A stretch of 64,000 nt of DNA from Sandaracinus amylolyticus (lineage in GTDB: Bacteria > Myxococcota_A > Polyangia > Polyangiales > Sandaracinaceae). The DNA is taken from the NCBI RefSeq assembly GCF_021631985.1, contig NZ_CP070225.1, positions 5,704,001 to 5,768,000 on the forward strand. Direction: 5' to 3'. Numbering within the stretch: position 1 is the stretch's first letter; each line of letters opens with the position of its first letter. The notes under the pieces are model-generated. The model saw nothing but the letters and a program-made list of their open reading frames with translations, did no database searches and was not told the DNA's origin. A program made the position numbers and the translations under genes. Below, in pieces: positions 33,169 through 54,352 of the stretch.

Positions 33169-34248
33169 TCAGACGTCGAGGAGCGCCGTGGCGACTCGCG
33201 CCATCTCGTCGGCCTCGTCGACCTGGACGACCCACGCGGAGGCGCGGCTCCCGGGGGCCGTGATCGCTCGATCCACCGGGCTCGCGGCGTTCCGAGCACG
33301 GTCGAGCTCGAGACCGAGCCACGCGAGGGGCCCGAGGATCCGCTCACGAATCTCGGCGGCATTCTCTCCGACACCACCGCCGAACACGACCGCATCGAGC
33401 CCGCCGAGCACTGCCGCGTACGCGCCGATGATCTTGCGCAGTCGATGGCAGTAGAGCTCGAGCGCGAGAACGGCGCGGCCATCACCGCTCGCCGCCAGTC
33501 GCAGGACGTCGGGCATCGCGTCATGGCCACAGACGCCGAGCAGGCCACCTCGCTGGTTGATCCAATGGTCGAGCTGGTCCGCCGAACAGCCGCGTGCGCG
33601 CAGGAGGTGGATGAGCAAACCAGGATCCACGTCGCCGGAACGACTGGCCATCACGAGCCCTTCGGACGGCGAGAACCCCATCGACGTATCGAGCGCTCTG
33701 CCATCGAGGATCGCAGTCGCCGAGCAGCCCGCACCGAGCTGGAGAGTGACGAGGCGTCGGGGTCTCGCGGGCAGCTCCCGGGCTCGCCGACTCATGTAGG
33801 AATGCGCCAGCCCGTGGAACCCGTAGCGGCGTATGGGCCCGAGCTCGGACGCGAGCGCGTAGGTCGCCGCGTGATCGGGAAGGTCGTGGAAGAACGCGGT
33901 GTCGACCGCCGCGAGCTGCGGCACGTTCGGCCCGAAGGCGATCCGAGCCGCTGCGAGATAGCGGAGCGCCGCGGGATTGTGGAGTGGCGCGAGCGGGCTC
34001 GCGTCGCGCACGGCAGCTTCCACGTCCGGAGTGAAGAACGCGTGCCTCTGCACGTCGCCTGCGTGCACGACGCGATGGACGACGGCGTCGATCGCTCCGT
34101 GAGGTGCCACGAATTCCGCGAGATCGACGACGGCGTCCCGAGACGCGCGCCGCGAGCTCACGATCCGCCCATCGCGCCACACCGCGAGCTTGACCGACGA
34201 GCTCCCCGTGTTGACCAACAGCAAGCGTACCTGGTGGACGCTCGTCAT
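33169..34248 (-). CDS. ackA: Acetate kinase (short variant)
   Basis: Makes acetate and ATP from acetyl-phosphate, the product of the adjacent phosphoketolase. 359 residues, shorter than the usual 395-405. Recognisable blocks are NTGSSSVKLAV, HRVVHAGD, DTAFFHDLPDHAA, YGFHGLAHSYMSRR, DTSMGFSPSEGLVMASRSGDVDP and GGVGENAAEIRERI. The nucleotide-site loop reads QLGAGCSATA in place of the usual HLGNGAS, and the C-terminal helix is shortened. It starts 6 bases after the LOG-protein stop, so it is in the same operon. The variant loop may alter nucleotide preference, but the fold and the main catalytic His and Arg blocks are kept. Confidence 0.92.
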   Translation of the reverse strand: MTSVHQVRLLLVNTGSSSVKLAVWRDGRIVSSRRASRDAVVDLAEFVAPHGAIDAVVHRVVHAGDVQRHAFFTPDVEAAVRDASPLAPLHNPAALRYLAAARIAFGPNVPQLAAVDTAFFHDLPDHAATYALASELGPIRRYGFHGLAHSYMSRRARELPARPRRLVTLQLGAGCSATAILDGRALDTSMGFSPSEGLVMASRSGDVDPGLLIHLLRARGCSADQLDHWINQRGGLLGVCGHDAMPDVLRLAASGDGRAVLALELYCHRLRKIIGAYAAVLGGLDAVVFGGGVGENAAEIRERILGPLAWLGLELDRARNAASPVDRAITAPGSRASAWVVQVDEADEMARVATALLDV

Positions 34249-34254
34249 CGCGGC

Positions 34255-34980
34255 TCAGTCCTCGTGCTTGCGAGCGCGCATCCAGCGTTCGTGATCCGCC
34301 CGTACGACCTCGATCGCTTCGGCGCTCGAGACCGCGCACCGCGGAATCGAGAGCTCCTGTTCGGACGCGAAAGCCAGGTCCGCACCGAGCATGTGGGTGC
34401 GAGCCCATCGAACGAGGTCGCTCCACATCGGCCCGACGAAGACGAGCGGCTTGTCGCTCAGGTGGCCGACCTGCAGGAGCTGCCAGATCATCATCGCCTC
34501 GAGAACCGTCCCGATCCCGCCGGGCGCGACGATGTACGCGTCCGACGCCAACACGAAATGATGCAGGCGCGTGAAGAAGGTCCGGTGCTCGTACATCTGC
34601 GTGACGAACGCATTCGGTGTCTGCTCGAAGGGCAGGCTGATGCGAATCCCCATCGAGCGGGCTCCGGCACCACTCGCCGCGTCGCTGGCTCCCGCGTTGG
34701 CCGCGCTCATGAGACCCGGGCCGCCGCCAGTGACGATGTCGCACCCGAGCTCGGTCAGTGCTCTCGCCACCCGGCGGGTCTCGTCGTAGACGAACGTTCC
34801 GGGCTCCGCGCGAGCGGATCCGAAGATCGTCACGCGGTAGCGCTCCTGCTTGGACGGGCGCAGCCGAGTGAGGCCGTTCACGACCTCCCACAGCTTGAGC
34901 ACGCTCTCGACGACGACGTCCTTGACGCGGTCTTCGTCGTCGAGGCTGATGTCGCCGCGATCGGCGTCCGAGCCACTCAC
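34255..34980 (-). CDS. LOG-family Rossmann protein (TIGR00730 type)
   Basis: 241 residues from a GTG whose last bases overlap the phosphoketolase stop (GTGA), so translation is coupled. Contains the two LOG signatures [14 protein letters not shown] and [12 protein letters not shown]. Some family members cleave the ribose-5-phosphate from nucleoside 5'-monophosphates (cytokinin-activating phosphoribohydrolase). Others have no known activity and were once mislabelled lysine decarboxylase. Lying between phosphoketolase and acetate kinase, it could feed ribose-5-phosphate from nucleotides into the pentose pool; this is inference. The first 50 residues are an extra charged N-terminal helix seen in the longer subfamily. 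Confidence 0.9.
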
Positions 34981-37400
34981 GGCCGCGACTCCGCACGGTA
35001 CGGGAACTTCCACTCTTCCATCTCGGGCTTGTCGACCCCGAACTCGTACGCATACGCCTGACTCGCGAGCTGGGCGTTCCGGAGCTTCTCCTTCTGATGG
35101 ATGCCCCGGCGCTGCAGCCACGGGACTCGATCGATCACGTCCATCGCGAGGCTGAATCGATCGATGCGGTTCTGGATCGCGAGCTCGAGAGGCGTGTTGA
35201 TGTTTCCCTTCTCCCGATAGCCGTGTACGTGGAAGCTCTGACTGTTGGCGCGCCGGTAGATCATCCGGTGGATGAGCCACGGATAGCCGTGGAAGTTGAA
35301 GATGACCGGCTTGTCGGTGGTGAACGTGCCCTCGAAGTCCCGATCCGACATGCCGTGCTCGTGCTCGTCCGGCGATGCCAGGCGATAGAGGTCGACCACG
35401 TTGACGAAGCGGATCTTCAGCTCGGGAAAGTCTTCGTGGAGGAGCGTGACGGCTGCGAGGGCTTCCTTCGTCGCGATGTCGCCGGCGCAGGCGATGACGA
35501 CGTCCGGCTCGGTCCCGTAGTCGTTGCTCGCCCGGCTCCAGACGCTCACTCCCTTCTTGCAGTGCACGATGGCCTCCTCCATGTCGAGATACTGGAGGTG
35601 CTTCTGCTTGTCGCAGACGATGACGTTGATGAGGCCACTGCTGCGCAAGCAGTGATCGGCCACGCACAACAACGTGTTCGCGTCGGGCGGCAGATAGATC
35701 CGGCAGACGTGCGGATCCTTGTTGAGGACGACGTCGAGGAACCCCGGATCCTGATGGGTGAACCCGTTGTGGTCCTGCCGCCAGACGGTCGACGTGAGCA
35801 ATAGATTGAGCGAGGACACCGGTGCACGCCACAGCTGCTCTCGACTCGCCGAGAGCCACTTCGCGTGCATGTTGAACATCGAGTCGATGACGTGCGCGAA
35901 GGCCTCGTACGTCGAGAAGAACCCATGCCGGCCGGTGAGTAGATAGCCCTCGAGCCAGCCCTCGAGCGTGTGCTCCGAGAGCATCTCGAGGACCCGCCCG
36001 TCGGGGGACAGCTGTCCTCCGTCTGCGTCCTCCGGCAGGTAGTCGCCGAGCCACATCTTCTTCGTGACCTCGTAGATCGCGTCGAGGCGGTTCGACGCGG
36101 TCTCGTCGGGACAGAAGACGCGGAAGTTGTGCATGTTGGCACGCATGATGTCGCGCAGGAATTCTCCGAGCGGCCGAGTGTTCCCGACGGTGCTGCGACC
36201 CGGCTGCTCCACTCGGACCGCGTAGTCGCGGAAGTCCGGCATCCGCAGCGGCCTCCGCAGCAGCCCGCCGTTGGCGTGCGGATTGGAGCCCATGCGCCGT
36301 CGGTCTTGCGGTGCCAGCGCTCGGAGCTCCGGAATCAGCCGGCCATCCTGGTCGAACAGCTCCTCGGGACGATAGCTGCGCAGCCAGTCCTCGAGCAGCT
36401 TCAGGTGGGCCGGGTTCGAATGGATGCCCGAGAGCGGCACTTGGTGCGACCGCCAGAAGCCCTCGGTCTTGTGGTTGTCGACCTCGCGAGGGCCGGTCCA
36501 GCCCTTGGGGCTCCGCAGCACGATCATCGGCCACCGCGGCCGGACTGCTCTTCCGCTCGCGCGTGCGTCGCCCTGGATCTGCTTGATCTGGAGCACGCAG
36601 TCCTCGAGGGTCGCAGCCATCTGCTGGTGCATCGCCTCGGGATCCGAGCCCTCCACGTAGTACGGAGTCCATCCGTAGCCCCGCAACAGGCCGTCCAGCT
36701 CCTCGCGCGAGATGCGCGCCAGGATCGTCGGATTCGCGATCTTGTATCCGTTCAGGTGCAGGATGGGGAGCACGGCGCCGTCGCGAATCGGATTCAAGAA
36801 CTTCGTCGAGTGCCACGCCGTGGCGAGCGGCCCCGTCTCGGCTTCTCCGTCGCCGACCTCGACCGCCACGAGGAGATCGGGATTGTCGAAAGCCGCGCCG
36901 AACGCGTGAGAGATGCTGTAGCCCAGCTCACCGCCTTCGTGGATCGATCCGGGCGTCTCGGGAGTGCAGTGGCTCCCGATTCCCCCGGGGAACGAGAACG
37001 AGCGGAAGAGCTCGAGCATCCCCGCCTCGTCCTCGCCCTTGTCGGGATAGATCTCCGAGTACGAGCCCTCGAGGTAGACGGGGGCGAGCACGCCCGGCGC
37101 GCCGTGGCCGGAGCCCGCCATGAAGATCGCATCGAGGTCGTACTTCTTGATCAGGCGATTGAGGTGCACGTACATGAAGCTCAGGCCGGGGCTCGCGCCC
37201 CAGTGGCCCAAGAGGCGCTGCTTGACGTGCTCGGGGCGCAGCGGCTCGCGCAGCAGGGGATTGGCGCGCAGGTAGATCATCCCCACCGCGAGGTAGTTGC
37301 ACGCACGCCAGTACGCGTGCATGGCCCGCAGCTCTGCAGACGCGCTCTGTCCCGGGGAGGCTCCACGCCGCCCCGATTCCCACTGCTCGACGTGCGTCAT
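34977..37400 (-). CDS. xfp: Xylulose-5-phosphate/fructose-6-phosphate phosphoketolase
   Basis: Thiamine-diphosphate enzyme, 807 residues, the normal length. It splits xylulose 5-phosphate (and usually fructose 6-phosphate) with phosphate into acetyl-phosphate and a triose or tetrose phosphate. Marks include [76 protein letters not shown], and the C-terminal domain with [15 protein letters not shown]. The ATG at 37400 is preceded by AGGAG at seven bases; the frame upstream is a shadow. First gene of the carbon module and read in the same direction as the exporter operon, 89 bases after its last permease. Confidence 0.96.
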
Positions 37401-37489: not shown

Positions 37490-38614
37490 CTACTTCGCGA
37501 CTGCGATGGACTTCCGGAAGCGCGTCACGCTGTAGACGAAGAACCCGAGGCCGACGACGCTCACCATCGCGAAGTTCCGCCACACGGCCCCCAGGCCGCC
37601 GCCGCGGTACACGATGACCTGCGAGAAGCTGACGAAATGCCTCGTCGGAAGGAAGTAGGTGAGCGCCTGCAGCCACTCGGGCTGACTCTCCACCGGAGTC
37701 GAGCCTCCGGAGAGCAGCTGCAGAACGACGACGACGAGCACGATCAGGAGGGCGAACTGCGCCATCGAACGTGAGATCGTGCCGAGGAACAGGCCGAGCG
37801 CCGTCGCGAAGAAGAGGTACAGCGCCACGCCGACGAACCACAGCGCGTGTGAGCCTGCGAACGGCACCCCGAGCACCATCTGGACCATGACGAAAAGCGA
37901 GATCGCGGTCGCGACGAGGATGACGAGCGCGTTGGCCCACACCTTTCCCATCGCGATCTCGAATGCGGTCAGCGGCATGACGAGCAGGTGCTCGAGCGTG
38001 CCGTGCTCTCGCTCTCGAATCACGGCAGCACCCGTGAGCACGATCGTCAGGAGCGTCAGCTGGTTGATGATCGCGACGACGCTCGTGAACCAAGACGACT
38101 CACTGTTCGGATTGAACAGCTTCCGCACGATCAGCTGCGCGGGCCTCGGCCCTTCCTCTTCGGTGCGCCGGAGGAAGCTCGAGATCCGATCGTCGATGAT
38201 GTTCTTGATGTAGCCGGAGCCGATGCCGGCCTGCTGCATCGCCGTCGCATCGATGCTCACCTGGATCTCCGGATGGCGTCCTGCGCGGAGGTCGTACTCG
38301 AAGCGCGGAGGGATCGTGACGACGAACATGAATCGTCCCTCGTCCATCGCGTCTTCGATCTGATCGGTCCGGATCTCCTCGGGCCTCTGGAAGCGCGGGG
38401 GATAGAACGCGTTGAGCAATTCCCTCGAGAGCGCGGAGCGGTCCTCGTCGACGAACGCGATCGAAGCGTTGTTGACTTCGTTCGAGGTGCCGGTCGCCTG
38501 CGAGTAGACGGTCCACGTGAACGCGTATGCGACGAAGAGCATCAGGACCGTGTCGCCGACCAGGCTCCGCAGCTCCTTGAGCCCCAACCACGCGATGTTC
38601 GTCAGCGAGTGCAC
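37490..38614 (-). CDS. ABC-2 type permease (YhhJ/YbhR-like)
   Basis: 374 residues. One N-terminal helix (about 20-40), a large extracytoplasmic domain of about 140 residues (about 45-185, including [16 protein letters not shown] and a [13 protein letters not shown] strand), and five more helices ending near 365. This is the DrrB/YbhR class of ABC-2 export permeases. The GTG start comes one base after the RbbA-like stop (TGA C GTG), so translation is coupled. In E. coli the equivalent protein YhhJ sits beside RbbA and a HlyD-type adaptor, the same set as here. Exported substrate unknown. Confidence 0.92.
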
Positions 38615-38615
38615 G

Positions 38616-41426
38616 TCATCGGTCCTGCTTCTTCAGGGCGAGCGCGCTCACCGCGAGGAGGATCGGAATGGTGCACGCGAGGACGAGCAGGTCGTGCGCC
38701 ATCAGTCGGGGCGCGAGGCCCTTCGTGTAGGCGCCGACGCTCGAGTGCATGTAGTACGTCGTCGGCCAGACCGAGCCGATGATCCGGGCGCCGCCCTCGA
38801 GGGTCGAGACCGGCTGGAGCAGGCCGGCGAACTGGATCGTCGGCTGGATCGTGAGGATGGCCGTGACGAAGACCGCGGCGACCTGAGTCTTCGTGAACGT
38901 CGAAGTGACCATGCCGACGCCGGTCGTCACCACGACGTAGAGGAACGTGCAGAGCGTGAGGACCAGGAAGCTGCCCTTGATCGACACTCCGAACACGATC
39001 GCTGCGAGCGCCACCAGGATGAAGTAGTTGATCATCCCGATCGCGACGTAGGGAATCTGTTTCCCCAGCAGGTACTCGAGCCGTCCGGTCGGCGTGACGT
39101 AGAAGTTGATGATCGAGCCGAGCTCTTTCTCGCGCACGATGCTGACGGTCATGAGGATTGCCGGGATCAGGATCAACAGCAGCGCCGGCACACTCGGCAC
39201 GATCGTGTAGATGCTCTCGAACGTCGGGTTGTACATGTAGCGTTTCTGGATGGACGCCGTGAATCGCGGTGGAGGCGTGCGGAGCGCGGTCCCGCGATGT
39301 CGCAGCATCGTCTCGTGGACGCCGCGCACGTACTGGGCGATCGTCTCGGCGCGATACGGCATCGCGCCGTCCACCTGCACGAGCACTTCGGCTTCCGACT
39401 CCCGCCGCACGTCGCGACCGAATCCTGGCGGGAGCTCCACGATGAACGACACGTCGCCGGACTTGAGCCGGTCGAGCCCCTCCTCGTCGGAGGTGACCGG
39501 TGCCGTCGGTCGGAAGTACTCGCTCGCTCCGGCGAACTGCTCGAGATAGGCGCGGCTCTCGGGCGTTCCGTCGCGGTCCAGGACCGCGTAACGAATGTCC
39601 TCGACGTCCGTGGTGATGCCGAATCCGAACACGAGCATCAGCAGCGCGGAGCCGACGAACGCGAACGTGAGTCGGATGGGATCGCGGCGGATCTGGATCG
39701 CCTCGTTGCGCGAATAGGCGAGCATCCGGCGCACCGGAAGCGGCACGCGGGACTTGCGCGCGGGCTTCGGCGGCGCTGCGGCTCCGACGGGCAGCGAGGC
39801 GGCCGGCGGGGGCACCGACGTCGTGCTCGGAGCGCCCTTCTCGGCCTTCGCGCGATCCGACGAATCGACGATCGCGTCCTCCATGTACGCGATGAACGCG
39901 TCTTCCAGGCCTGCCGCGCCACGCGCCTCGATCAGCTTCTCCGGCGCGTCGCACGCCAGCACTCGCCCGGCATGCATGAGGGAGATGCGGTCGCAGTGCA
40001 TTCCCTCGTTCATGAAGTGCGTCGTCACGAAGATCGTGACGCCGTCTCTCCGGGAGAGCTCGACCAGCAGCTCCCAGAAGCTGTCTCGCGCGACGGGATC
40101 GACGCCCGACGTCGGCTCGTCGAGGATCAACAGCGTGGGCTCGTGCAGGACGGCGACTGCGAGCGAGAGTCGCTGGCGCAGACCCATCGGGAGATCGCGA
40201 GTCAGCGCGTCGATGTGAGGGCCGAGCCCGAACCGCTCGACCAGAGCGTCTATCCGCGTCTTCGCGACGTCGGGAGGAAGGTGGTAGAGGCGCGCGTCGA
40301 GAACCAGATTCTGCCGGACCGTCAGCTCCTCGTAGAGCGAGAAGGCCTGGGTCATGTATCCGATGGTCTTCCGGACTGCGATGCTCCCCGCTTCGACGGA
40401 GCTCCCGAAGATCGTCGCGGTCCCCTCGGTCGGCGGCAGGAGACCGGTGAGCATCTTCATCGTCGTCGACTTGCCGCAGCCGTTGGAGCCGAGGAAGCCG
40501 AAGATCTCGCCCCGCTCGATGCTCAGCGTCACGTGGTCGACCGCGGTGAAGCTGCCGAAACGTTGGGTCAGCCCCTTGGCCTCGATCGCGATCTCGCGCG
40601 CGCCGGCGGGGCGCGGCGGAATCACGAGCTTCCTGTGCCCGAGGCGCCTCTCCTCGGGCAGGAGCGCGATGAAGCACTCCTCGAGGCTCGTCGTGCCGGT
40701 CCGCTGCATCAGGTCCTGCGGGGTGCCGGCCGCGAGGACGCGCCCCGCGTCGATCGCGAAGATCCAGTCCCACCGCTGCGCCTCGTCCATGTACGCAGTG
40801 GAGATGACGACGCTCATCCCGGGCCGACCTGCGCGGATGTCGTCGATCAGAGTCCAGAACTGCCGGCGCGAGAGCGGATCGACACCCGTGGTCGGCTCGT
40901 CGAGGATGAGGAGATCGGGGTCGTGCACCAATGCACCGCAGAGCCCGACCTTCTGCTTCATGCCGCCGGAGAGCTTTCCCGCAGGCCGATCGCGAAACGG
41001 AGCGAGGCCGGTGGCGACGAGCAGATCATCGATGCGAGCTTCGCGCTCCTCGGCGGAGAGCCCGAAGAGCTGCGCCATGAAGTCGACGTTGTCGTGGACG
41101 CTCAGCTCGAGATAGAGATTCTTCCCCAACCCCTGCGGCATGTACGCGATCCGCGGCCCGGTGGATCGTCGATGCGCGGCGGACGCGATGTCGCCGCCGA
41201 GGACCGTGAGCTTGCCGTCCTGCAGCTTCTTCGAGCCTGCGATCAGCGCGAGGAGCGTGGACTTGCCGACACCGTCGGGGCCCACCACGCCGACCATCAG
41301 GCCACTCGGGACCTCGAGAGAGATGTGATCGAGCGCGACGACATGGCCATACCGGTGCGTCACGTCGGCCACCGTGACGACGGGACCGACGACGGGCGCC
41401 CCTGCGAGCGTGGTAGTCGTGCTCAC
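38616..41426 (-). CDS. rbbA: RbbA-like fusion: two ABC ATPase domains plus ABC-2 permease
   Basis: 936 residues from a GTG with TAGGAG upstream. First ATPase domain about 15-250: Walker A GPDGVGKST, signature LSGGMKQK, Walker B LLILDEPTTGVD; its switch position reads ISTAYMDEA, lacking the usual His. Second domain about 275-505: GSNGCGKST, a divergent signature PMGLRQR, LLILDEPTSGVD and a normal TTHFMNEG switch. A linker then leads to an ABC-2 permease domain (about 565-930) with six helices. The architecture matches E. coli RbbA (YhiH), reported as a ribosome-associated ATPase, but here the permease and adaptor context argues for export. Eight bases separate it from the HlyD-type adaptor gene. 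Confidence 0.9.
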   Translation of the reverse strand: MSTTTTLAGAPVVGPVVTVADVTHRYGHVVALDHISLEVPSGLMVGVVGPDGVGKSTLLALIAGSKKLQDGKLTVLGGDIASAAHRRSTGPRIAYMPQGLGKNLYLELSVHDNVDFMAQLFGLSAEEREARIDDLLVATGLAPFRDRPAGKLSGGMKQKVGLCGALVHDPDLLILDEPTTGVDPLSRRQFWTLIDDIRAGRPGMSVVISTAYMDEAQRWDWIFAIDAGRVLAAGTPQDLMQRTGTTSLEECFIALLPEERRLGHRKLVIPPRPAGAREIAIEAKGLTQRFGSFTAVDHVTLSIERGEIFGFLGSNGCGKSTTMKMLTGLLPPTEGTATIFGSSVEAGSIAVRKTIGYMTQAFSLYEELTVRQNLVLDARLYHLPPDVAKTRIDALVERFGLGPHIDALTRDLPMGLRQRLSLAVAVLHEPTLLILDEPTSGVDPVARDSFWELLVELSRRDGVTIFVTTHFMNEGMHCDRISLMHAGRVLACDAPEKLIEARGAAGLEDAFIAYMEDAIVDSSDRAKAEKGAPSTTSVPPPAASLPVGAAAPPKPARKSRVPLPVRRMLAYSRNEAIQIRRDPIRLTFAFVGSALLMLVFGFGITTDVEDIRYAVLDRDGTPESRAYLEQFAGASEYFRPTAPVTSDEEGLDRLKSGDVSFIVELPPGFGRDVRRESEAEVLVQVDGAMPYRAETIAQYVRGVHETMLRHRGTALRTPPPRFTASIQKRYMYNPTFESIYTIVPSVPALLLILIPAILMTVSIVREKELGSIINFYVTPTGRLEYLLGKQIPYVAIGMINYFILVALAAIVFGVSIKGSFLVLTLCTFLYVVVTTGVGMVTSTFTKTQVAAVFVTAILTIQPTIQFAGLLQPVSTLEGGARIIGSVWPTTYYMHSSVGAYTKGLAPRLMAHDLLVLACTIPILLAVSALALKKQDR

Positions 41427-41434
41427 GTTCGCTC

Positions 41435-42505
41435 CTAGCGGCGCGTCGTGGTCGACGAGCGCGCCACGCGCCCGCGCTCCGGGCTCAGGAGGTTCCGCTG
41501 GAGGAACTCGGGCCAGGGCGTGGATTCGTCGAATCGCACGTACCCGACGCCACGCACGCCCGTCTTGATCTGCTCCGTGTAGTGCATCACGAGCTCGCGC
41601 GGCACTTGGATCTTCACGCGGAACATCAGCTTCTCGCGCTCCGACCGGGTCTCGACCTCTCTGGGGGTGAACTGCGCCTCGGGGGACACGAAGCTCACGT
41701 AACCAGGCGCGACGCGGTCGGGTGCGTAGTCGAGCTGCACCCGCGCTTCGGCGCCGATCTGGATCTGCGCGGCCTGGTTCGAGGGCAGGAAGATCTCCAT
41801 GTAGACGTCTTCGAGATCCACGAGCGTGAGGACCTCGCCTCCGGGCCCGAGCACCTCGCCGGGCTCGGCCAAGCGATAGAGCACGCGTCCGTGCACGGGC
41901 GAGGTCAGCGTCGCGTCGTCGATGCGACTCTGGACCACGGCGACGTTCGCTTCGGCCACTGCGACTTGCTGCTCGGCGACACGCAGGTTGGCCTCGGCCT
42001 CGTCGTGTCCCGCTCGCGCCGTCCTCAGCGCCGTCGTTCGCACGTCGAGCTCGCGCTGGGAGCCGGCGCGCTCCGCGACGAGATTTCCAGCACGCTCCAC
42101 CTCGATCCGCGCGAGCGCGATCTCGCTGTCTCGCCTGGCGATTCCGGCGCGCGCCACCGCGAGACTCTCGTGGGCGCCGGCCAGATTCTCTCGGGCTTCG
42201 GCCAGCTCTTGATCGAGCGTGACCGTGTCCATCCGCGCGAGGACCTGGCCGGGTCGAACGAGGTCGCCCTCCTCCACGTAGATCTCTCGTACTCGGAGCG
42301 GCAGTCGAGTGGCGACGTCGACTTCCTGGCTCTCGATCCTTCCGTTCCCGGAGGCGATCCCCTCGGGAAGGGCATCCGCGCGAGACCGCCAGTATCGATA
42401 TCCGAAGAACCCGGCGACGAGCACGACGGCGAGCACGCCCAGCGTCCATCGCCGAGTCTTCTTGTTCTGCAGCTTCGTCTTGAGCGCCTGGATCTTCGAG
42501 GTCAT
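41435..42505 (-). CDS. HlyD-family periplasmic adaptor (YhiI-like)
   Basis: 356 residues. One N-terminal membrane anchor (about 20-38), then a biotinyl-lipoyl half (VREIYVEEGDLVRPGQVLARMD), a long coiled-coil hairpin (about 100-205), the second lipoyl half (LTSPVHGRVLYRLAEPGEVLGPGG) and a beta-barrel domain. It would link the RbbA-like ABC exporter in the inner membrane to the NodT-type outer-membrane factor encoded just upstream, whose stop overlaps its ATG by four bases (ATGA). Confidence 0.93.
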   Translation of the reverse strand: MTSKIQALKTKLQNKKTRRWTLGVLAVVLVAGFFGYRYWRSRADALPEGIASGNGRIESQEVDVATRLPLRVREIYVEEGDLVRPGQVLARMDTVTLDQELAEARENLAGAHESLAVARAGIARRDSEIALARIEVERAGNLVAERAGSQRELDVRTTALRTARAGHDEAEANLRVAEQQVAVAEANVAVVQSRIDDATLTSPVHGRVLYRLAEPGEVLGPGGEVLTLVDLEDVYMEIFLPSNQAAQIQIGAEARVQLDYAPDRVAPGYVSFVSPEAQFTPREVETRSEREKLMFRVKIQVPRELVMHYTEQIKTGVRGVGYVRFDESTPWPEFLQRNLLSPERGRVARSSTTTRR

Positions 42506-44067
42506 TGCGCAACTCCGCTGTCATCCGTGCGGCGAGGAGGGCTCTCCGCGGCGTCTCCCCCGGCGGTTCGATCACCCGGATCGACGTGCGCCGTGTCCGC
42601 GCCCGCGAATTCCTGGTCGATCTGCCATCCTCCGCCGAGCGCTTTGTAGAGCGCGATCGCGCTCGTCGCGGTCGATGACGTCGACTCGGTGTGACGGCTC
42701 TGCGATTCCAGGAGCACGCGCTGCGTGTCCAGGACTCGCTGGTAGTCGGTCGCGCCTTCTCGATATTGGATGAGCGCCAGCCTCACTGCGAGCTCGGCCG
42801 CGGTGACGGCGGCCGCCGAGAGCGCCACCGTCTCTCGCGAGAGGAGGAATTCGACGATTCCGTCCTCGACCTCCTGCGCGGCGAGCAGGACGGTCTGCGC
42901 GTACTCGAGGAGCGATCGCGAATAGCGCGCGTCCTGGGCCGCGATGTTGTTGAGGATCTGCGGGTAGTTGAGGAGGGGCCAGAAGAGACTCCCGCCGAAC
43001 GTGTAGAGGAACGAGCCGGGCTCGAGCACTCGACCGATGGCCGACTCTGCTCCTGCGCCGACGACGGCAGCCGTTCCCAGCGAGCCCGTGAGGGAGAAGC
43101 TCGGATAGAGCTCGGCAGTCGCCGCGCCGACACGGTTGCACTGCGCGATCGCGCGCAGCTCTGCAGCGCGGATGTCGGGGCGACGGCGCAGCAGCTCTGC
43201 CGGCAGGCCGATCGCGACTCGGGGCGGCGGAGACGGGATTCCACGGGTCTCCTCGAGGAAGGGCTCGACGAATCCGCGCGGTCTCCCGAGGAGTGTGCTG
43301 AGCGCATTCAGCGCCTGCTGGTGCGCGATCCGGAGCGCCGGAATCCGAGCGCGAGTGGTCTCGAGCAACGTGGTCGCCTGAGCGACGTCGAGCTCGGACG
43401 TCGCTCCGTTGCGGAAGCGCGAAGTCGCGATGTCCAGCGCGTCCGACTGCACCACGACGTTCGCGTCCGCTTGTGCGATCAGCGTCTCGAACGAGCGCAC
43501 GAGCACGTAGGTCCGAGCGACCTCCGCGTTCAGCGAGACGATCGCGTCCTGGTAGTCGGCGACCTGTGCGAGCAGGTCCGCGCGCGCCGCCCGCACACCG
43601 CGTCGTTGCCGTCCCCAGAGGTCCAGCTCCCAAGTCGCATCGATGCCGACGAAGTACTGTCCGAAGATGTCGGTCGAATCCTCGCGCGTGATCCCTCCGA
43701 TCGTCCCGCTGGCGACCGGGCTCGGGTTCTGGGGCAAGAGCTCGCCGATCGCGACACCGACCTGCGCCCGAGCCTCCTCGATCCGCAGGCGTGCAATCTG
43801 GAGAGAGAGGTCCTGTTCATAGGCGAGCTCGATCAGGTGATCGAGCACCGGGTCGTCGAAGGTCGTCCACCACGCGATGTCGACGGCGGCATTCGTCGCG
43901 AGCCGTGGATCGCGGGCTTCCGTCCACTGGGAAGCCAGTGGGACGCGCGGTCGAGCGTACTCCGGGCCCACCATGCAGCCGCTCGCCGCCAGCGCGCACG
44001 CCAGCGTCACGACGGCGCATGCGCCGTGCTGCTTCGCGTCCGACCATGGGGTCCGATGTTCGCGCAT
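42502..44067 (-). CDS. NodT/OprM-type outer-membrane efflux lipoprotein
   Basis: 521 residues from the ATG at 44067; the shorter leader and lipobox AASGC followed by MVGPEYARP are typical of NodT-family outer-membrane factors. Two TolC repeats are visible, with family phrases such as [40 protein letters not shown] and the GLPAELL loop. The C-terminal 30 residues are polar and variable. It forms the outer duct for the HlyD/RbbA exporter and starts that operon. No strong ribosome site precedes the chosen ATG, so the exact start is the least certain point. Confidence 0.9.
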   Translation of the reverse strand: MREHRTPWSDAKQHGACAVVTLACALAASGCMVGPEYARPRVPLASQWTEARDPRLATNAAVDIAWWTTFDDPVLDHLIELAYEQDLSLQIARLRIEEARAQVGVAIGELLPQNPSPVASGTIGGITREDSTDIFGQYFVGIDATWELDLWGRQRRGVRAARADLLAQVADYQDAIVSLNAEVARTYVLVRSFETLIAQADANVVVQSDALDIATSRFRNGATSELDVAQATTLLETTRARIPALRIAHQQALNALSTLLGRPRGFVEPFLEETRGIPSPPPRVAIGLPAELLRRRPDIRAAELRAIAQCNRVGAATAELYPSFSLTGSLGTAAVVGAGAESAIGRVLEPGSFLYTFGGSLFWPLLNYPQILNNIAAQDARYSRSLLEYAQTVLLAAQEVEDGIVEFLLSRETVALSAAAVTAAELAVRLALIQYREGATDYQRVLDTQRVLLESQSRHTESTSSTATSAIALYKALGGGWQIDQEFAGADTAHVDPGDRTAGGDAAESPPRRTDDSGVAQ

Positions 44068-44385
44068 GGATGCCGGCGTGCTCGGAGCAACCGGGATGCC
44101 CTGGGAATCGCTCCACGACTGCGGCTCATCGTCGGGAGACCACGCGCGTCGTGAGCGTGTGAGCGCAGAAAGGAACGCTGCGGGATCCCGATCGAGTGTG
44201 GGACTCGTCGCGGCACGACACCGTGTCTCGCGTGTGCGAGCGCGAGGTCGCACTTCGTCCCGTCTACGCGCCCGATGCCGCCGGTTCGGCGACGACGATC
44301 CGGGAGATCCGACTCCGCTCCTCGATGCTGGAGTGGCTCGTCTCGTGCTGCCCACCAGCGCAGGAGCCCGAGGCCGAAGAACGGT
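44068..44385. promoter_or_regulatory. Divergent promoter region between exporter operon and HAD/transaldolase gene
   Basis: A 318-base gap between two start codons on opposite strands. No coding frame with convincing composition, hairpin or palindrome was found; it must hold promoters for both directions. Confidence 0.45.
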
Positions 44386-46320
44386 ATGCACGACGGTTCG
44401 CGAATCGCAGCGCTGCTGGCGGACGTCGACGGGACGCTGCTCACGAAGGACAAGGTGCTGACCGAGCGGGCGCTCCGCGCGGTCGACTCGCTCCGCGAGC
44501 GCGGCATCGTGTTCACGATCACCAGCGGTCGTCCGCCTTTCGGAATGCGGATGCTCGTCGAGCCGCTCCACCTGACGATGCCGATGGCAGCGTTCAACGG
44601 CGGCGTGATCGTGCTGCCGGATCTCTCGGTGCTCGATGAGCGCTTGCTGCCGGAGTACTTGCTGCCGGCGCTGCTGGACATGATCGAGGGACACGGGCTC
44701 GACGTGTTCGTCTTCCGATCGCGCGACTGGTTCGTGCGCTCCCTGAATGCGCCGCGCGTGAGCCGCGAGACCTCGAACATCCAGCAGGCTCCCGTCGTCG
44801 TGAAGAGCTTCGACGAGGTGCTCGCGGGCGTCGTCAAGATCGTCGGCGTGAGCAACGACCTGCCCCGCGTCGCGGCGTGCGAGGCGGCCGTGCGGCAGGC
44901 GTTCGGGACCCAGGTCTCGGCGGCGCGATCCGCCCCGCACTACGTCGACGTGACCCATCCGGGGGCGCACAAGGGAGTCGTGATCGAGCGGCTCTCGCGG
45001 TATCTGAAGATCCCGCTCGAGCACATCGCCGCGATCGGAGATCAACCGAACGACGTTCTGATGTTCGAGCGTGCCGGGCTCAGCATCGCGATGGGCAATG
45101 CGAGTGACGAGGTGAAGCGGCGCGCCACCGTCGTGACCAGCTCGTTCGCCGACGAAGGTTTTGCCGAGGCCGTCGATCGCATCGTCCTGCCTCGCAGCGC
45201 GGCTGCGAGCGGCCCTGCGGTGAAGACCACCGGGAGGCTCCATCACCTGGGCCAGAGTCTCTGGCTGGATGGCATCGGCCGCGACGCGCTCGAGTCGGGC
45301 GCGTTGCAGCGCCACATCGACGAGCGCTCGGTGACCGGGATCCGATCGAATCACGCGCTCTGGGCACGTGCGCTCGAGACGAGCTCCGCGTACGACGACT
45401 CCATCGCGAACGGGCGGCGCCGGAACCGCTCGAGCGAGGAGCTCCTGCTCGACATCGCGATCGAGGATCTCGCGCAGGCAGCGGATCTCCTTCGTCCCGT
45501 CCACGAACGCAGCGCGGGCGTCGACGGGTGGGTCTCCCTCGGAACGAGACTGGCTCACGACACGGTGAGCGCGGTCGCCGGCGCGAAGGAGCTCCTCTCC
45601 CGCGTGGCCCGCCCGAATTGGATGATCGAGATCCCCGGCACGCCGGCGGGACTGTCGGCCATCGAGCACCTGATCTTCGCCGGAGCCCCCGTCAACGTCG
45701 TGCTCCTCTTCTCTCGGGAGCAATACCTCGCGGCGGCCGAGGCGTACCTGCGGGGAGTCGAGCGTCGCGTCGACGCGGGCCTTCGCCCCGACGTCGCGTC
45801 GCTGGCCACGATGTCGATCCGTCGTTGGGACGCCGCCGTGGCAGGCGCGGTCCCCGAGGAGCTCCGAGGAGGGCTGGGCATCGCGATGGCCCAACGCACC
45901 TACAAGGCGTACCGCGAGGTCCTGCGCTCACCGCGGTGGCAGCGGCTCTACAACCTCGGTGGGCGCCCGCAGCGACTCCTGTGGGACATCACGGGGTCCG
46001 AGGACGCGAGTGCGTCCGACGTCACGTACGCGGCCTCGCTGACGGCGCAGTTCACGGTCCTGGCGATGCGGGAGCGCGCGCTGCTGGAGTTCGCGGAGCA
46101 CGGTCAGGTCACGACGCTCCTGCCGGCCGACGGCGGCACCAGCGACGAGACCCTCGCGCGTTTCCGAGCGGCAGGGATCGACCTGTATGCGCTCGCGCCG
46201 AAGCTCCAGGAGGACGGTCTGGCGAGGCTCGCGGGATCGTGGAGCGACCTCGTCGCGACCGTCGAGCGGAGAGCCGGGCGCGGCGACCTCGATCGCCGAC
46301 AGACAGGTGCTCCCGCCTAG
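44386..46320 (+). CDS. Fusion of Cof-type HAD phosphatase and degenerate transaldolase
   Basis: 644 residues. Residues about 7-275 are a HAD-IIB (Cof/YbiV) phosphatase with every catalytic motif: DVDGT with Asp13/Asp15, TSGRP, Lys196 in HPGAHKGV and GDQPNDVLMFE with Asp219/Asp223. Residues about 285-632 match the long bacterial transaldolase family: LWLDGIGRD, SVTGIRSN, LLRPVHERSAGVDGWVS, RLAHDT, IPGTPAGLSAI, SVNV-like VNVVLLFS and a final SW(N/S)DL. The Schiff-base lysine expected before IP is Glu415 (codon GAG, 45628-45630). The E-V-D segment after VS is deleted, and the Thr of the LTLLFS strand is Val. The second domain is therefore probably not an active transaldolase and may bind sugar phosphates or regulate. 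The gene is divergent from the exporter/phosphoketolase series. Confidence 0.9.
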   Translation: MHDGSRIAALLADVDGTLLTKDKVLTERALRAVDSLRERGIVFTITSGRPPFGMRMLVEPLHLTMPMAAFNGGVIVLPDLSVLDERLLPEYLLPALLDMIEGHGLDVFVFRSRDWFVRSLNAPRVSRETSNIQQAPVVVKSFDEVLAGVVKIVGVSNDLPRVAACEAAVRQAFGTQVSAARSAPHYVDVTHPGAHKGVVIERLSRYLKIPLEHIAAIGDQPNDVLMFERAGLSIAMGNASDEVKRRATVVTSSFADEGFAEAVDRIVLPRSAAASGPAVKTTGRLHHLGQSLWLDGIGRDALESGALQRHIDERSVTGIRSNHALWARALETSSAYDDSIANGRRRNRSSEELLLDIAIEDLAQAADLLRPVHERSAGVDGWVSLGTRLAHDTVSAVAGAKELLSRVARPNWMIEIPGTPAGLSAIEHLIFAGAPVNVVLLFSREQYLAAAEAYLRGVERRVDAGLRPDVASLATMSIRRWDAAVAGAVPEELRGGLGIAMAQRTYKAYREVLRSPRWQRLYNLGGRPQRLLWDITGSEDASASDVTYAASLTAQFTVLAMRERALLEFAEHGQVTTLLPADGGTSDETLARFRAAGIDLYALAPKLQEDGLARLAGSWSDLVATVERRAGRGDLDRRQTGAPA

Positions 46321-50032: not shown

Positions 50033-50437
50033 TCATCCGCGCCCGATCCCTTCGCGCGCGATCAGCGCGAGGACACGCGCGCGCACGCCGTCGCGGATCG
50101 CGCGCACCTCGTCGATCGGCTTGCCCTTCGGATCGGGCAACGGCCAGTCGTCGCGACGGAGGCCGGGCACCACCGGGCACTGCTCGTCGCAGCCCATCGT
50201 GATCAGCATCGTCGCGCCGCGCGCGAGCTCGTCGGTCAGTCGCTGCGGCTGCCGCCCTTCGAGCTCGATGCCGACCTCGCGCATCGCGACCGCGACCTCC
50301 GGATGCACGCGCGGTCCGGGCTGGGTGCCGGCGGAGATCGCGCGCGCCTTGGTGGGATCGGCGAGGTGCTCCAGCCACGCGGCCGCCATCTGCGAGCGAC
50401 CCGCGTTGTGCACGCACGCGAACAGATAGGTCTTCAT
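50033..50437 (-). CDS. arsC: Arsenate reductase (low-molecular-weight phosphatase type)
   Basis: 134 residues. Reduces arsenate to arsenite with a thiol relay. P-loop CVHNAGRSQ (Cys-x5-Arg) near residue 8, further Cys pair MGCDEQCP near 80-86 and the phosphatase-type DPKGK loop near 100 are all present, so it is catalytically complete. The donor could be thioredoxin or another small thiol. The ATG at 50437 shares one base with the Acr3 stop (TGATG); an upstream in-frame extension lies inside that gene. The arsenite produced would leave by Acr3. Confidence 0.93.
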   Translation of the reverse strand: MKTYLFACVHNAGRSQMAAAWLEHLADPTKARAISAGTQPGPRVHPEVAVAMREVGIELEGRQPQRLTDELARGATMLITMGCDEQCPVVPGLRRDDWPLPDPKGKPIDEVRAIRDGVRARVLALIAREGIGRG

Positions 50438-51552
50438 CACGCCCTCGTCTCGTTCACGGTGCCCGGCGCGCACGGCGCCGCGATGATCTCCACGTCGGTG
50501 CCGGGGAAGTGCTTGCGCTGCAGCCAGAGCGCGACGTTCACGAGCCCGATGAGCACCGGCACCTCGACCAGCGGCCCGATGACCGCGGCGAACGCCGCGC
50601 CGCTGTCGATGCCGAACGTCGCGATGGCCACCGCGATCGCGAGCTCGAAGTTGTTGGACGCCGCGGTGAACGAGAGCGTCGCGCTCTGTCCGTAGGTCGC
50701 GCCCACGCGCTTGCTCATGAAGAACGAGACCAGGAACATCACGACGAAGTAGACGAGCAGCGGCAGCGCGATGCGCAGCACGTCGAAGGGCAGCTCGACG
50801 ATCGTCTCGCCCTTGAGCGAGAACATCACGACGATCGTGAAGAGCAGCGCGACCAGCGTGATCGGCCCGATCCGCGGGACGAACGTCGTCTGGTACCAGT
50901 CGGCGCCGCGCGCGCGAACGAGCACGAAGCGCGTCAGGAATCCCGCCGCGAACGGGATGCCGAGGTAGATGGCGACGCTCTGCGCGATCTCGCCGATCGT
51001 GATGTCGACCACCGCGCCCTCGAGCCCGAGCCAGCTCGGCAGCAGCGTCGCGAAGAAGTACGCGTAGACCGAGAAGAAGAGGACCTGGAAGATCGAGTTG
51101 AACGCGACGAGGCCCGCGCAGTACTCGGTGTCGCCCTTCGCGAGATCGTTCCAGACGATCACCATCGCGATGCAGCGCGCGAGCCCGATCAGGATGAGCC
51201 CGAGCATGTATTGGGGCTCGTCGCGCAGGAACAGGATCGCGAGGCCGAACATCAGCACCGGGCCGATCACCCAGTTCTGCACGAGCGAGAGCACGAGCAC
51301 GCGCCGGTTGCGGAAGACCTTGCCGAGATCCTCGTAGCGAACCTTCGCGAGCGGCGGATACATCATCAGCACGAGCCCGATCGCGATCGGCACCGACGTG
51401 GTGCCGACGTTCATCGCGCCGAGCGCGTCGCGCACGCCGGGCACGAGCACGCCGAGCGCCACGCCCACCGCCATCGCGCCGAAGATCCAGAGCGTCAGGT
51501 AGCGATCGAGGAACGAGAGATTCCGGGCGACGCCCGTGGTCTGCGCGGACAT
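50437..51552 (-). CDS. acr3: Arsenite efflux permease Acr3
   Basis: 371 residues with ten helices, the BASS-fold arsenite exporter. Recognised by [36 protein letters not shown] (the conserved Cys of helix 4), the [17 protein letters not shown] stretch and [18 protein letters not shown] with the Glu of helix 9. Start ATG 51552 lies four bases after the ArsR stop and before the leader; the longer frame to 51705 is shadow. Middle gene of arsR-acr3-arsC. Confidence 0.95.
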
Positions 51553-51556
51553 CGGG

Positions 51557-51934
51557 TCAGCCTTCCTTCGCGAGCTTCTCGGGCGCCTCGAGCGCGGCCT
51601 GACGCGGCGGTGCGAGCGCGGAGATGAGGTCGCCGAGCGCACCGACGATCGAGAAGTCGAGCGAGTAGTAGACCCACGAGCCGCGCCGCTCGGAGCACAC
51701 GACACCCGCGTCCTTGAGGACCTTCAGGTGATGCGAGACGGTCGGCTGCGCGAGACCGAGGCCAGGCGTGATGTCGCAGACACACACCGCCCGGCCCGCG
51801 GCCGCGAGACGCGCGACGATCTCGAGACGAGCTTCGTCGGCGAGCGCTCGCAGGAGCGGCGCGTGACCGCGAATCGAGCGCGGAGCGATGACGGCCGGCG
51901 TGTCGCAGCGGTCGCGAAGGTCGTTTCGAGCCAT
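51557..51934 (-). CDS. arsR: ArsR-family arsenical-responsive repressor
   Basis: 125 residues, winged helix. Helix-turn-helix [24 protein letters not shown] near 57-80, preceded by CVCDI whose two Cys are in the position that binds As(III) in ArsR. Wing [11 protein letters not shown] follows. It should repress its own operon until arsenite displaces it. A 7+7 inverted repeat lies 20 bases upstream of its start and is the likely operator. Confidence 0.94.
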
Positions 51935-51954
51935 CGCGCGCAGACTACGGCGAA

Positions 51955-51979
51955 ATCGACGACCGTCAATACCGTCGAT
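51955..51979. promoter_or_regulatory. Putative ArsR operator upstream of arsR
   Basis: ATCGACG and CGTCGAT form an inverted repeat with an 11-base spacer. The spacer carries a TTGACG that fits a minus-strand -35, with TAGTCT 16 bases further, so binding here would block arsR transcription. A second perfect palindrome (ACTTCG-A-CGAAGT) lies at 52016-52028. Confidence 0.5.
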
Positions 51980-52045
51980 CGAGCGACACGAGATTGGCGC
52001 GAATGCTCATCGTTCACTTCGACGAAGTACGATATCGCGCCGCGG

Positions 52046-52621
52046 CTAGCTCGGCTCGCCCTTGCACCCACTGCACCCGCGCGGCGTGCACTCCGTGATG
52101 CGACGCCGCGCATCGAGCTCGATCGCGCACGCTTCCTCGAACATGCGCCGGAGCTGCTCGCGCCCGCGCTGCACCCGCGACTTCATGCCGGAGTGCGACA
52201 CGCCGAGCATCGCTGCGGCGTCCTTCTGCGACACGCCTTCGATCTCGGTGAGCGTGATCGCTTCGCGGTAGGGCGACGGGAGCATCGTGACGAAGCGCGC
52301 GACGCACCCCACGAGCTCGCGCGTGAGCGCGTCGTCGCTCTCGCCGTCGTCGGGCGCGGCTTCGATCACGACGTCGTCGCCCGCGACGGGATGACGCGCG
52401 CGCGTGCGCCGGTGCTCCGCGATCGCGCTCCGCGCGACCTGGAAGAGCCACGGCGCGAGCCGCTCCTGATCGCGCGCCTGCCCGATGCCGCGCTGCATTC
52501 GCAAGAACACGTCCTGCAGCACGTCGTCCACGTCGGCGGGCGCGGCGACACGACGCGCGACGAACGCGCGAAGGCGTCCTTCGAGCTCGCGCCACACGCG
52601 CTCCGCCTGGGGATCGTTCAC
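52046..52621 (-). CDS. SigZ-like extracytoplasmic-function sigma factor
   Basis: 191 residues from a GTG that overlaps the arsM stop by four bases. Region 2 (about 15-80: FVARRVAAPADVDDVLQDVFLRM ... WLFQVARSAIAEHRR) and region 4 (about 115-165: LPSPYREAITLTEIEGVSQKDAAAMLGVSHSGMKSRVQRGREQL) are complete. A short tail with Cys residues, CTPRGCSGC, is typical of SigZ proteins and may bind a metal or arsenite. No anti-sigma gene is adjacent. Coupled to arsM, it may direct transcription of arsenic or stress genes. Confidence 0.9.
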   Translation of the reverse strand: MNDPQAERVWRELEGRLRAFVARRVAAPADVDDVLQDVFLRMQRGIGQARDQERLAPWLFQVARSAIAEHRRTRARHPVAGDDVVIEAAPDDGESDDALTRELVGCVARFVTMLPSPYREAITLTEIEGVSQKDAAAMLGVSHSGMKSRVQRGREQLRRMFEEACAIELDARRRITECTPRGCSGCKGEPS

Positions 52622-53454
52622 GCGCAGCACTCCGGACCGCAGCACGACTTGCCGGGCTTGATCGCCTCGATCGCCGCGGAGGCGACGTAGCGCTCCGCGC
52701 CGCTCTCGGGGAACCAGTCGCGGATCGTCGCGCGCGAGGCTTCCTTCACGTCGACGCGCACCTCGCCGAAACCGGCCTTGGTGAGCATCGCGCGGAGCTC
52801 CTCGACGTGCGCCGCGCCCGCGACACACCCGGTGTACGCGGCGACGTCGGCGCGCACCGCGTCGGGCAGCACGGCAGTGGCGACGACGTCCGCGATGGCG
52901 AGACGACCGCCCGGTCGCAGCACGCGGAACGCCTCGCGGAACACGGCGGCCTTGTCGGGCGACAGGTTGATCACGCAGTTGGAGATGATGACGTCGACGC
53001 TCGCATCCGACACCGGCATACGCTCGATCTCGCCGAGCCGGAACTCGACGTTCGTCGCGCCCGCCTTTGCCGCGTTGGCGCGTGCCTTCGAGATCATGTC
53101 GGGCGTCATGTCGACGCCGATCACGCTTCCCTTCGGTCCGACCTGTCGCGCCGCGAGGAGCGCATCGAAGCCACCGCCGCTGCCGAGATCGAGCACGGTC
53201 TCGCCCTCCTGCAGCGCTGCGATCGCCTGCGGGTTCCCGCAGCCGAGGCCCATGTCGGCGCCCTGCGGGACCGCCGCGAGCTCGGCGTCGCTGTAGCCGA
53301 GGCCTGCGCTCGTCGAGCCGACGCCGAGGCCTGCGCTGGTCGGGCCGCAGCACCCGCTCGGCGCGCACCCGCACGAGCCACCCTCGCGCGCGATCTTCCC
53401 GTACGTCTCGCGCACGGTGCCCCGGATCTCGTCCATCGTCTTGGTGTCGGTCAT
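52618..53454 (-). CDS. arsM: Arsenite S-adenosylmethionine methyltransferase
   Basis: 278 residues. N-terminal Cys cluster (SCGCAPSGCCG near 27-37) precedes the class I methyltransferase fold. SAM motifs: VLDLGSGGGFDALLAARQVG, VIGVDMTPDMISKAR, GEIERMPVSDASVDVIISNCVINL. The Cys in NCVINLS and one in YTGCVAGA match the arsenic-binding Cys of ArsM, and the protein ends in CCGPECCA. It methylates arsenite to volatile or exportable species. ATG 53454 has AGGAGG upstream. Coupled to the sigma gene downstream. Confidence 0.95.
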   Translation of the reverse strand: MTDTKTMDEIRGTVRETYGKIAREGGSCGCAPSGCCGPTSAGLGVGSTSAGLGYSDAELAAVPQGADMGLGCGNPQAIAALQEGETVLDLGSGGGFDALLAARQVGPKGSVIGVDMTPDMISKARANAAKAGATNVEFRLGEIERMPVSDASVDVIISNCVINLSPDKAAVFREAFRVLRPGGRLAIADVVATAVLPDAVRADVAAYTGCVAGAAHVEELRAMLTKAGFGEVRVDVKEASRATIRDWFPESGAERYVASAAIEAIKPGKSCCGPECCA

Positions 53455-53509
53455 CTCGAGCCTCCTGCTAGGGAAGACGGGCTCTCCGCCGGAAGGACGC
53501 AGACAATCG

Positions 53510-54352
53510 TCATCGGTCCGCTCGGCGCGCGATCTCGGCCGCGACGCCGACGACCAGATACATCGCGAGGCCGTAGACGAGGATCGCCTCGGTCGTTCGG
53601 GGCGCGGGGTACACGGTCGCGGCGAGCGCGAGCGCCAGCGACAGACTGCGCACGCCGGTCGAGACGCCGAGCGCGACGCGGCTCGCGCGCTCCGCGCCAC
53701 GTCCGAGCAGCTGGGCCGCCATCACGCCCACGAGCGTCAGGAGCACCGAGGCACCGAACGTCCACGGCCCGGCTTCGAGCACCGAGCGCCAGCGCGCGAT
53801 CGCGATGCCGGCGATCAGCGAGAGGAGCAACAGGTTCGAGGCCGCGTTCGCGATGCGCGCAGCGCGCACCGTCACGTCGCCCGAGAGGTGCGCCCGCGCG
53901 ATCACCGCGAGCCCGAGCGGCACGAGCTGCAGCGCGATCGCCACGCCGGCGCCGCTCGCCGCGGCGACCAGCGATGCGCGCGAGCCCCCGCCCGTGAGCA
54001 GCGCGACGAGCGCCGGCGTCGCGAGCGCACTGAGCAACGTCGCGAGCACCACGAGCGCGGCCGTGAGCGCGGCGTTTCCCCGCGCGCGCAGCGTGAGCAC
54101 GGTCGCGGACGCGCCGCCGGGAGCGCACGCGGCGAGCGTCAGCCCTACCCGCGTGTCGGCGTCGATCGGCGCCAGCGCGAGGACCGCGGCGGCAGTGAGC
54201 GGCACGACGACGAGCGTCGCGATCATCGCGCGCACGAGGAGCCCGCGCTGCGCGAGGATCGATCGCGCCCGCGCGGCGTCGAGATCGAGCCCCACCGCCG
54301 CCATCGACGCGACGACGAGGAGCGCAGCGACGACGCGCTCGAGGAGCGTCAT
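53510..54352 (-). CDS. BASS-type (bile acid:sodium symporter superfamily) transporter
   Basis: 280 residues with about nine to ten helices. The motif GLTLAACAPGGASATVLTLRARGN and later AARIANAASNLLL resemble the crossing helices of the BASS fold shared by bile-acid symporters and Acr3. It starts at ATG 54352, overlapping the stop of the upstream membrane protein by four bases. Its position between an ArsR-family regulator and arsM suggests transport of an arsenical or another small anion; that is inference, as the family transports many organic anions. Confidence 0.82.
   Translation of the reverse strand: MTLLERVVAALLVVASMAAVGLDLDAARARSILAQRGLLVRAMIATLVVVPLTAAAVLALAPIDADTRVGLTLAACAPGGASATVLTLRARGNAALTAALVVLATLLSALATPALVALLTGGGSRASLVAAASGAGVAIALQLVPLGLAVIARAHLSGDVTVRAARIANAASNLLLLSLIAGIAIARWRSVLEAGPWTFGASVLLTLVGVMAAQLLGRGAERASRVALGVSTGVRSLSLALALAATVYPAPRTTEAILVYGLAMYLVVGVAAEIARRADR

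Follow-up and report, generated by a model that had tools for sequence, protein, structure and literature searches.

What becomes of a transaldolase barrel that stays attached to another enzyme after the residue needed for its chemistry has been replaced? This question was raised by a gene in the window, as we call the whole stretch of 64,000 nucleotides of Sandaracinus amylolyticus DNA analysed here, in which a Cof-type HAD phosphatase was joined to a transaldolase-like (TAL) domain carrying Glu in place of the Schiff-base Lys. An answer required knowing how much of each half was intact, whether the loss was shared by relatives, and whether the barrel still evolved as a folded protein would.

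The fusion and its phosphatase half

The open reading frame of the HAD-TAL fusion (44386..46320, plus strand; 644 amino acids) started at an ATG at 44386 and contained no internal stop. A second in-frame ATG lay upstream at 44275, and no clear Shine-Dalgarno sequence was seen by eye before the ORF. Two Pfam matches within the single ORF, Hydrolase_3 (PF08282; residues 11-262, E 2.4e-55) and TAL_FSA (PF00923; residues 292-624, E 1.1e-40), bore out the original prediction that an intact Cof-type HAD domain and a full-length TAL-like domain are joined in one frame. The HAD-IIB phosphatase domain (PF08282, TIGR00099) occupied residues 7-268 (44404..45189, plus strand) and was followed by a linker at about residues 269-284 (45190..45237, plus strand; pLDDT about 57 in part), the end of which, VKTTGRLHHLGQSLW, matched the sequence with which stand-alone TAL proteins begin, MKATQQLHEMGQSLW. 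By the PF00923 match and the structural model, residues 285-630 (45238..46275, plus strand) formed a transaldolase-like (beta/alpha)8 barrel with an altered active site.

The catalytic set of the HAD half was present throughout motifs I-IV (Asp13, Asp15, Ser47, Lys196, Asp219 and Asp223); all of these except Ser47 had been called intact beforehand, and all could be read in the translation. This half scored above the curated TIGR00099 cut-off (165.3 vs 137 bits) and shared its fold and catalytic residues with Cof-type HAD-IIB phosphatases of TIGR00099 such as E. coli YidA (1rkq) and the B. thetaiotaomicron protein 4dwo; unlike them, it had a barrel fused at its C-terminus. Alterations were found at 3 of 43 HAD-family invariants (W108F, Q183A and N195H, the last adjoining catalytic Lys196), each only in the window protein, and more were altered only in L088, a distant member (9/52). 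These three substitutions suggest that the specificity of the phosphatase may have shifted.

Judged from its sequence, the HAD half probably dephosphorylates sugar phosphates of the pentose-phosphate/phosphoketolase network. One report states that 4-phosphoerythronate inhibits 6-phosphogluconate dehydrogenase (PMC6449344), and our guess at a candidate task is the clearing of side products such as this one. A Cof-type HAD also recurred near tal, gnd, zwf, tkt, pgl, pgi or xfp at L012, L014, L016, L018, L026 and L031-L039, the neighbours being Pfam-checked in L012, L018 and L033 only. This recurrence near pathway genes spanned Acidobacteria, Alphaproteobacteria and Actinobacteria, and it suggests that the recurring HAD has a phosphatase role in the pentose-phosphate pathway. 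As a separate observation, a second Cof-type HAD in the same genome (L002; G000:C1:1637556-1638365 and downstream), 53% identical to the window HAD, formed a fusion, within a single open frame, with a beta-phosphoglucomutase-like HAD, TIGR02009 and TIGR00099 both scoring above cut-off. A relative of its Cof part occurred in the congener G008 (L005).

Altered active site of the transaldolase-like half

The Schiff-base Lys is essential for transaldolase. At the position that we take to be TalB Lys132, codon 415 read GAG (Glu415; 45628..45630, plus strand), and codon 439, the equivalent of TalB Thr156, read GTG, giving Val439 in place of the catalytic Thr (45700..45702, plus strand). Both replacements had been predicted, as had the retention of Asp295, Asn322 and Asn437, which were present in the translation and, matched by motif, presumably correspond to TalB Asp17, Asn35 and Asn154. 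The predicted deletion of an E-V-D segment stood in part: the Glu equivalent to TalB Glu96 was lost and two residues fewer were present, but the change was a substitution with a net two-residue deletion and not a clean loss of E-V-D. The family motif V-S-L-E-V-S-P read V-S-L-G-T-R, with Gly386 replacing Glu and G-T-R filling residues 386-388 (45541..45549, plus strand) of the lost beta3 Glu motif.

The loss of Lys, Glu and Thr called by the original prediction was upheld, but it understated the extent of the change. Substitutions were seen across a much larger set of active-site positions: T320R, P323H, F326W, E386G, V387T, F477S, S479R, A534D, S535I, K539E, T560A, P562R and T565A. Several altered the beta7 motif (residues 534-539; 45985..46002, plus strand), part of the probable phosphate site, from ASTGTK to DITGSE. 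Only Arg480 was kept among three probable phosphate contacts; Ser535 had become Ile and Lys539, matched by motif to the presumed role of TalB Arg228, had become Glu. As these two changes remove or reverse probable phosphate contacts, the earlier suggestion that the domain may bind sugar phosphates was weakened, and such binding is now less likely. A paper on TalB describes its phosphate site as two Arg and one Ser and names Phe178, Arg181 and Ser176 (PMC3962226), and titles of PDB entries list the TalB mutants D17A, N35A, E96A, T156A and S176A.

Every confirmed homologue that covered the Schiff-base column had Lys, in contrast to Glu in the window protein. The best family match of the TAL half was PRK03343, and its scores lay below the curated cut-offs of both NF002881/PRK03343 (332.6 vs 367 bits) and TIGR00876 (201.6 vs 233.75 bits). 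It shared full-length homology and fold with the PRK03343/TIGR00876 transaldolases (N. gonorrhoeae 3clm and C. glutamicum 3r5e; Z 48-50), but, unlike them, it had none of the catalytic Lys, Glu and Thr. The bifunctional transaldolase/phosphoglucose isomerase (PRK09533) likewise joins a transaldolase to an enzyme neighbouring in the pathway; there, however, the partner is PGI and the TAL domain is N-terminal, whereas the window protein matched the TAL part only (269.9 vs a cut-off of 712 bits) and had no PGI domain. With the catalytic Lys, Glu and Thr gone, the TAL domain very probably has no transaldolase activity.

A trivial cause had to be weighed here, since AAG and GAG differ by one base and a column of Lys in all homologues would also be expected if the Glu came from faulty sequencing or assembly, or were a lone variant in an otherwise working transaldolase. 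The original prediction had named Lys-bearing homologues as the sign of a one-base error at 45628, and the homologues did bear Lys, but an error of this kind leaves 19 changes unexplained. The window TAL altered 19 of 57 family-invariant positions, spread over seven barrel strands with no frameshift, compared with 0-5 in the other full-length members by a leave-one-out count that set the truncated L066 aside. L092, on a longer branch than the window protein, altered 5 of 62. The one-base error was rejected on these 19 altered invariants around the barrel mouth, and we give an error or lone variant almost no weight.

Other fusions and the genomic setting

An exact-peptide scan of 84,980 species genomes (79 loci; peptides including 'PNWMIEIP', with diverged cases possibly missed), combined with searches of the order, the class and plasmids, found HAD and TAL in one ORF in only two places besides the window. 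Both were in metagenome-assembled genomes: L010 from Thermoguttaceae bacterium A05DMB26 (JANLFZ010000017.1) and L011 from Polyangiaceae bacterium Bin8.16 (JABFXY010000085.1), the latter being the same locus as L089 of the order-wide search. No further HAD-TAL fusion was found in the class-wide search of 318 genomes. Alignment of the Lys column across fused proteins, which had been proposed as a check, placed Lys in both. Domain order, linker position and linker length were the same as in the window protein, but L010 and L011 kept the Lys, Glu, Asn, Thr and phosphate residues where the window protein had lost its active site, and they stood in an operon with xfp where the window fusion was separated from it. 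Identity of the window protein to L010 and L011 was 77% and 79% in the HAD half and 58% and 57% in the TAL half; that between L010 and L011 was 82% and 74%, respectively. No other fusion with active-site loss was found in the 84,980-genome exact-peptide scan, the order, the class (318 genomes) or the plasmid collection. Because L010 and L011 keep every catalytic residue and lie in phosphoketolase operons, the HAD-TAL fusion itself is not new, and the active-site loss, among the sequences compared, is confined to this genome.

L021 was considered as a third fusion and rejected, as it consisted of two adjacent genes, the HAD with an internal deletion; adjacent HAD and TAL genes of this sort are plausible as the pre-fusion state. 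The contig of L066 ended inside its TAL, so that this locus speaks neither for nor against a fusion. Most relatives had HAD and TAL as separate genes of one pentose-phosphate gene set, and operons from several phyla combined the two families with zwf, gnd, pgl, tkt, pgi or xfp. The order was zwf-tal-pgl-HAD-tkt-pgi in L012 and tal-pgi-gnd-tkt-zwf-HAD-pgl in L033, and xfp adjoined HAD in L018. Among the fusions, L010 had the order rpiA, pgi, fusion, xfp, with ackA further on (rpiA and pgi named by eye), and L011 the order xfp-ackA-fusion.

In the window, the fusion was a single plus-strand gene flanked by two minus-strand genes, NodT and Cons_hypoth698. Its description as beside a phosphoketolase operon was loosely right, but xfp (34965..37376, minus strand), the only phosphoketolase gene in the genome, was not directly adjacent: on the opposite strand and at a distance of 7 kb, it was separated from the fusion by a four-gene efflux operon encoding an ABC-2 permease, an ABC ATPase/permease, HlyD and a NodT-type OEP (37490..43989, minus strand). 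Acetate kinase was encoded at 33169..34248 (minus strand; PF00871, E 3e-84). The efflux operon also bordered the xfp-ackA-fusion module in L011, with its gene order unchanged. In the congener G008 the efflux genes were found at 79-85% DNA identity with two of them swapped, the ABC ATPase and ABC permease genes (G008:C1:9406064-9412632 vs window 37490-43989; L011 has the window order), and neither the fusion nor a phosphoketolase was found in that genome. The window xfp shared 59-60% identity with the L010 and L011 genes; these were 76% identical to each other and 57-59% identical to an actinobacterial xfp. Since the window xfp, at about 59%, was no closer to the L010 and L011 genes than the actinobacterial one, its history is probably not that of the xfp accompanying the fusion elsewhere. 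Two further observations were made by eye in the window: a minus-strand ORF between ackA and xfp (34255-34960) had a LOG-family-like end (GGGPGLM), and ORFs at 50033-53700 resembled a cluster of arsenic genes, made up of an ArsC-like phosphatase, an ACR3-like transporter, an ArsR-like regulator and an ArsM-like methyltransferase overlapped by an RNA polymerase sigma-like ORF.

The genome also encoded a TalC/FSA-family enzyme with Lys that scored above the TIGR00875 cut-off, although TIGR00875 is named fructose-6-phosphate aldolase and transaldolase activity of this member is not assured, as well as a distant TAL protein with the Lys motif. Because of these other Lys-bearing TAL-family enzymes, loss of the window TAL activity may be tolerable.

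Fate of the barrel

A structure prediction for the fusion protein, which had been proposed as a check, yielded an AF2 model with a mean pLDDT of 89.6 and a weak spot at residues 271-280, in which the barrel was intact. The TAL half superposed on N. gonorrhoeae transaldolase (7bbw_A) with Z 49.6 and rmsd 1.5 over 347 aligned residues, and the L011 model gave Z 52.5; the AF2 input alignment was rich in active transaldolases, and this would favour a barrel. The barrel fold thus appears in this model to be preserved while the catalytic pocket is lost. The low confidence of the linker means that no interdomain arrangement can be read from the model.

The altered invariants were concentrated at the barrel mouth, set from the strand ends of the predicted structure, where 16 of 30 had changed against 3 of 27 elsewhere (Fisher p 8e-4; p 0.0005 to 0.044 over ten choices of mouth window and threshold). 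Hand-set windows gave 18/34 against 1/23, but these were drawn with the changes in view, and the strand-based test is therefore the one relied on. Among active relatives the mouth differed less than the remaining positions (L010-L011, 14% vs 29%; L010-L012, 9% vs 30%), and this order was reversed between the window protein and L011 (50% vs 41%). Counts of changes found only in the window protein against those only in L011 were 22-24:4 at the mouth, 39-61:24-28 in the rest of the TAL half and 16-24:11-13 in the HAD half; the last two did not differ by Fisher test, and the direct Fisher test of mouth against rest gave, depending on the outgroup, p 0.017 to 0.14. A general acceleration of the TAL domain was rejected as the signal, as the window branch was about twice that of L011 in both halves (HAD 0.22 vs 0.10, TAL 0.56 vs 0.23) and only the mouth stood out.

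A home-made codon model gave window-branch dN/dS values of 0.106 (TAL) and 0.075 (HAD), which are rough as dS was saturated, and omega = 1 was rejected for both TAL (delta lnL 17.3) and HAD. Given that saturation, and since the branch spans the period before the loss as well as the one following it, these values exclude neutrality only for the branch taken whole. The GC3 values were normal, at 0.879 in the TAL half and 0.897 in the HAD half.

These patterns bear on whether the TAL half might be a decaying relic, a dispensable passenger on its way out with no present role. Such a relic would fit an active-site loss seen in one genome only, the Lys-bearing TAL-family enzyme elsewhere in the genome, a nearby xfp not closely related to the xfp beside the other fusions, and a TAL dN/dS about twice the background on this branch (0.106 vs 0.054), a difference that was not significant (2 delta lnL 2.6). 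Decay should, however, strike all invariants alike, contrary to the contrast between the mouth and the remainder; the ORF, GC3 and predicted fold were all intact, and the TAL half outside the mouth evolved like the HAD half. We consider a relic possible but unlikely.

The remodelled mouth itself invites another explanation, in which the barrel would bind a sugar phosphate or another metabolite and tune the phosphatase as an allosteric domain, or would catalyse some other reaction. The mouth had gained charged or aromatic residues while Asp295, Asn322, Asn437 and Arg480 remained, and both families belong to pentose-phosphate operons. Against this, two of the three probable phosphate contacts had changed (Ser535Ile and Lys539Glu), a single sequence carried the new residues with none other to show selection on them, and the linker was of low confidence in the model. 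A sensor or a new activity accordingly strikes us as improbable.

We favour, with a probability of about 0.6, the explanation that the TAL half is a transaldolase-dead pseudoenzyme domain kept as a scaffold on an active phosphatase. It was preferred to free decay because structural invariants were kept and active-site invariants lost. The original view of the domain as a pseudo-enzyme agreed with the catalytic loss read from its residues, the persistence of the fold and the retained HAD catalytic set. The ancestor would have been a bifunctional HAD-phosphatase/transaldolase fusion in a phosphoketolase/pentose-phosphate gene set. Its transaldolase active site would then have been lost in this genome, leaving a barrel presumably devoid of transaldolase chemistry whose fold was kept by selection. 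The working part would most likely be the N-terminal HAD, acting through an Asp13 phospho-enzyme as a sugar-phosphate phosphatase on pentose-phosphate/phosphoketolase intermediates, and the barrel would most likely serve it as a covalently attached scaffold for solubility, oligomerisation or domain packing. Several points count against a scaffold: the rough omega is averaged over a branch that spans the loss, a single sequence carries that loss, the low-confidence linker comes with no sign of a fixed HAD-TAL interface, and the new mouth residues (Arg320, His323, Trp326, Glu415, Arg479, Asp534, Glu539 and Arg562) could just as well form a new site.

No report of a pseudo-transaldolase or of a HAD-TAL fusion was found in the literature searched, a limited library. 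Fused domains are known to lose their catalytic function, but for transaldolase no such report was found there. This TAL domain seems to be an enzyme domain that was turned, recently, into a non-catalytic scaffold, a recent loss being proposed because the only two other fusions found keep a working pocket. With their intact active sites, L010 and L011 provide a matched comparison for what a dead barrel gives its partner enzyme, and for whether the phosphatase is freed or constrained once the barrel no longer catalyses. Study of the fusion would also help to find out what the HAD family recurring in pentose-phosphate operons does.
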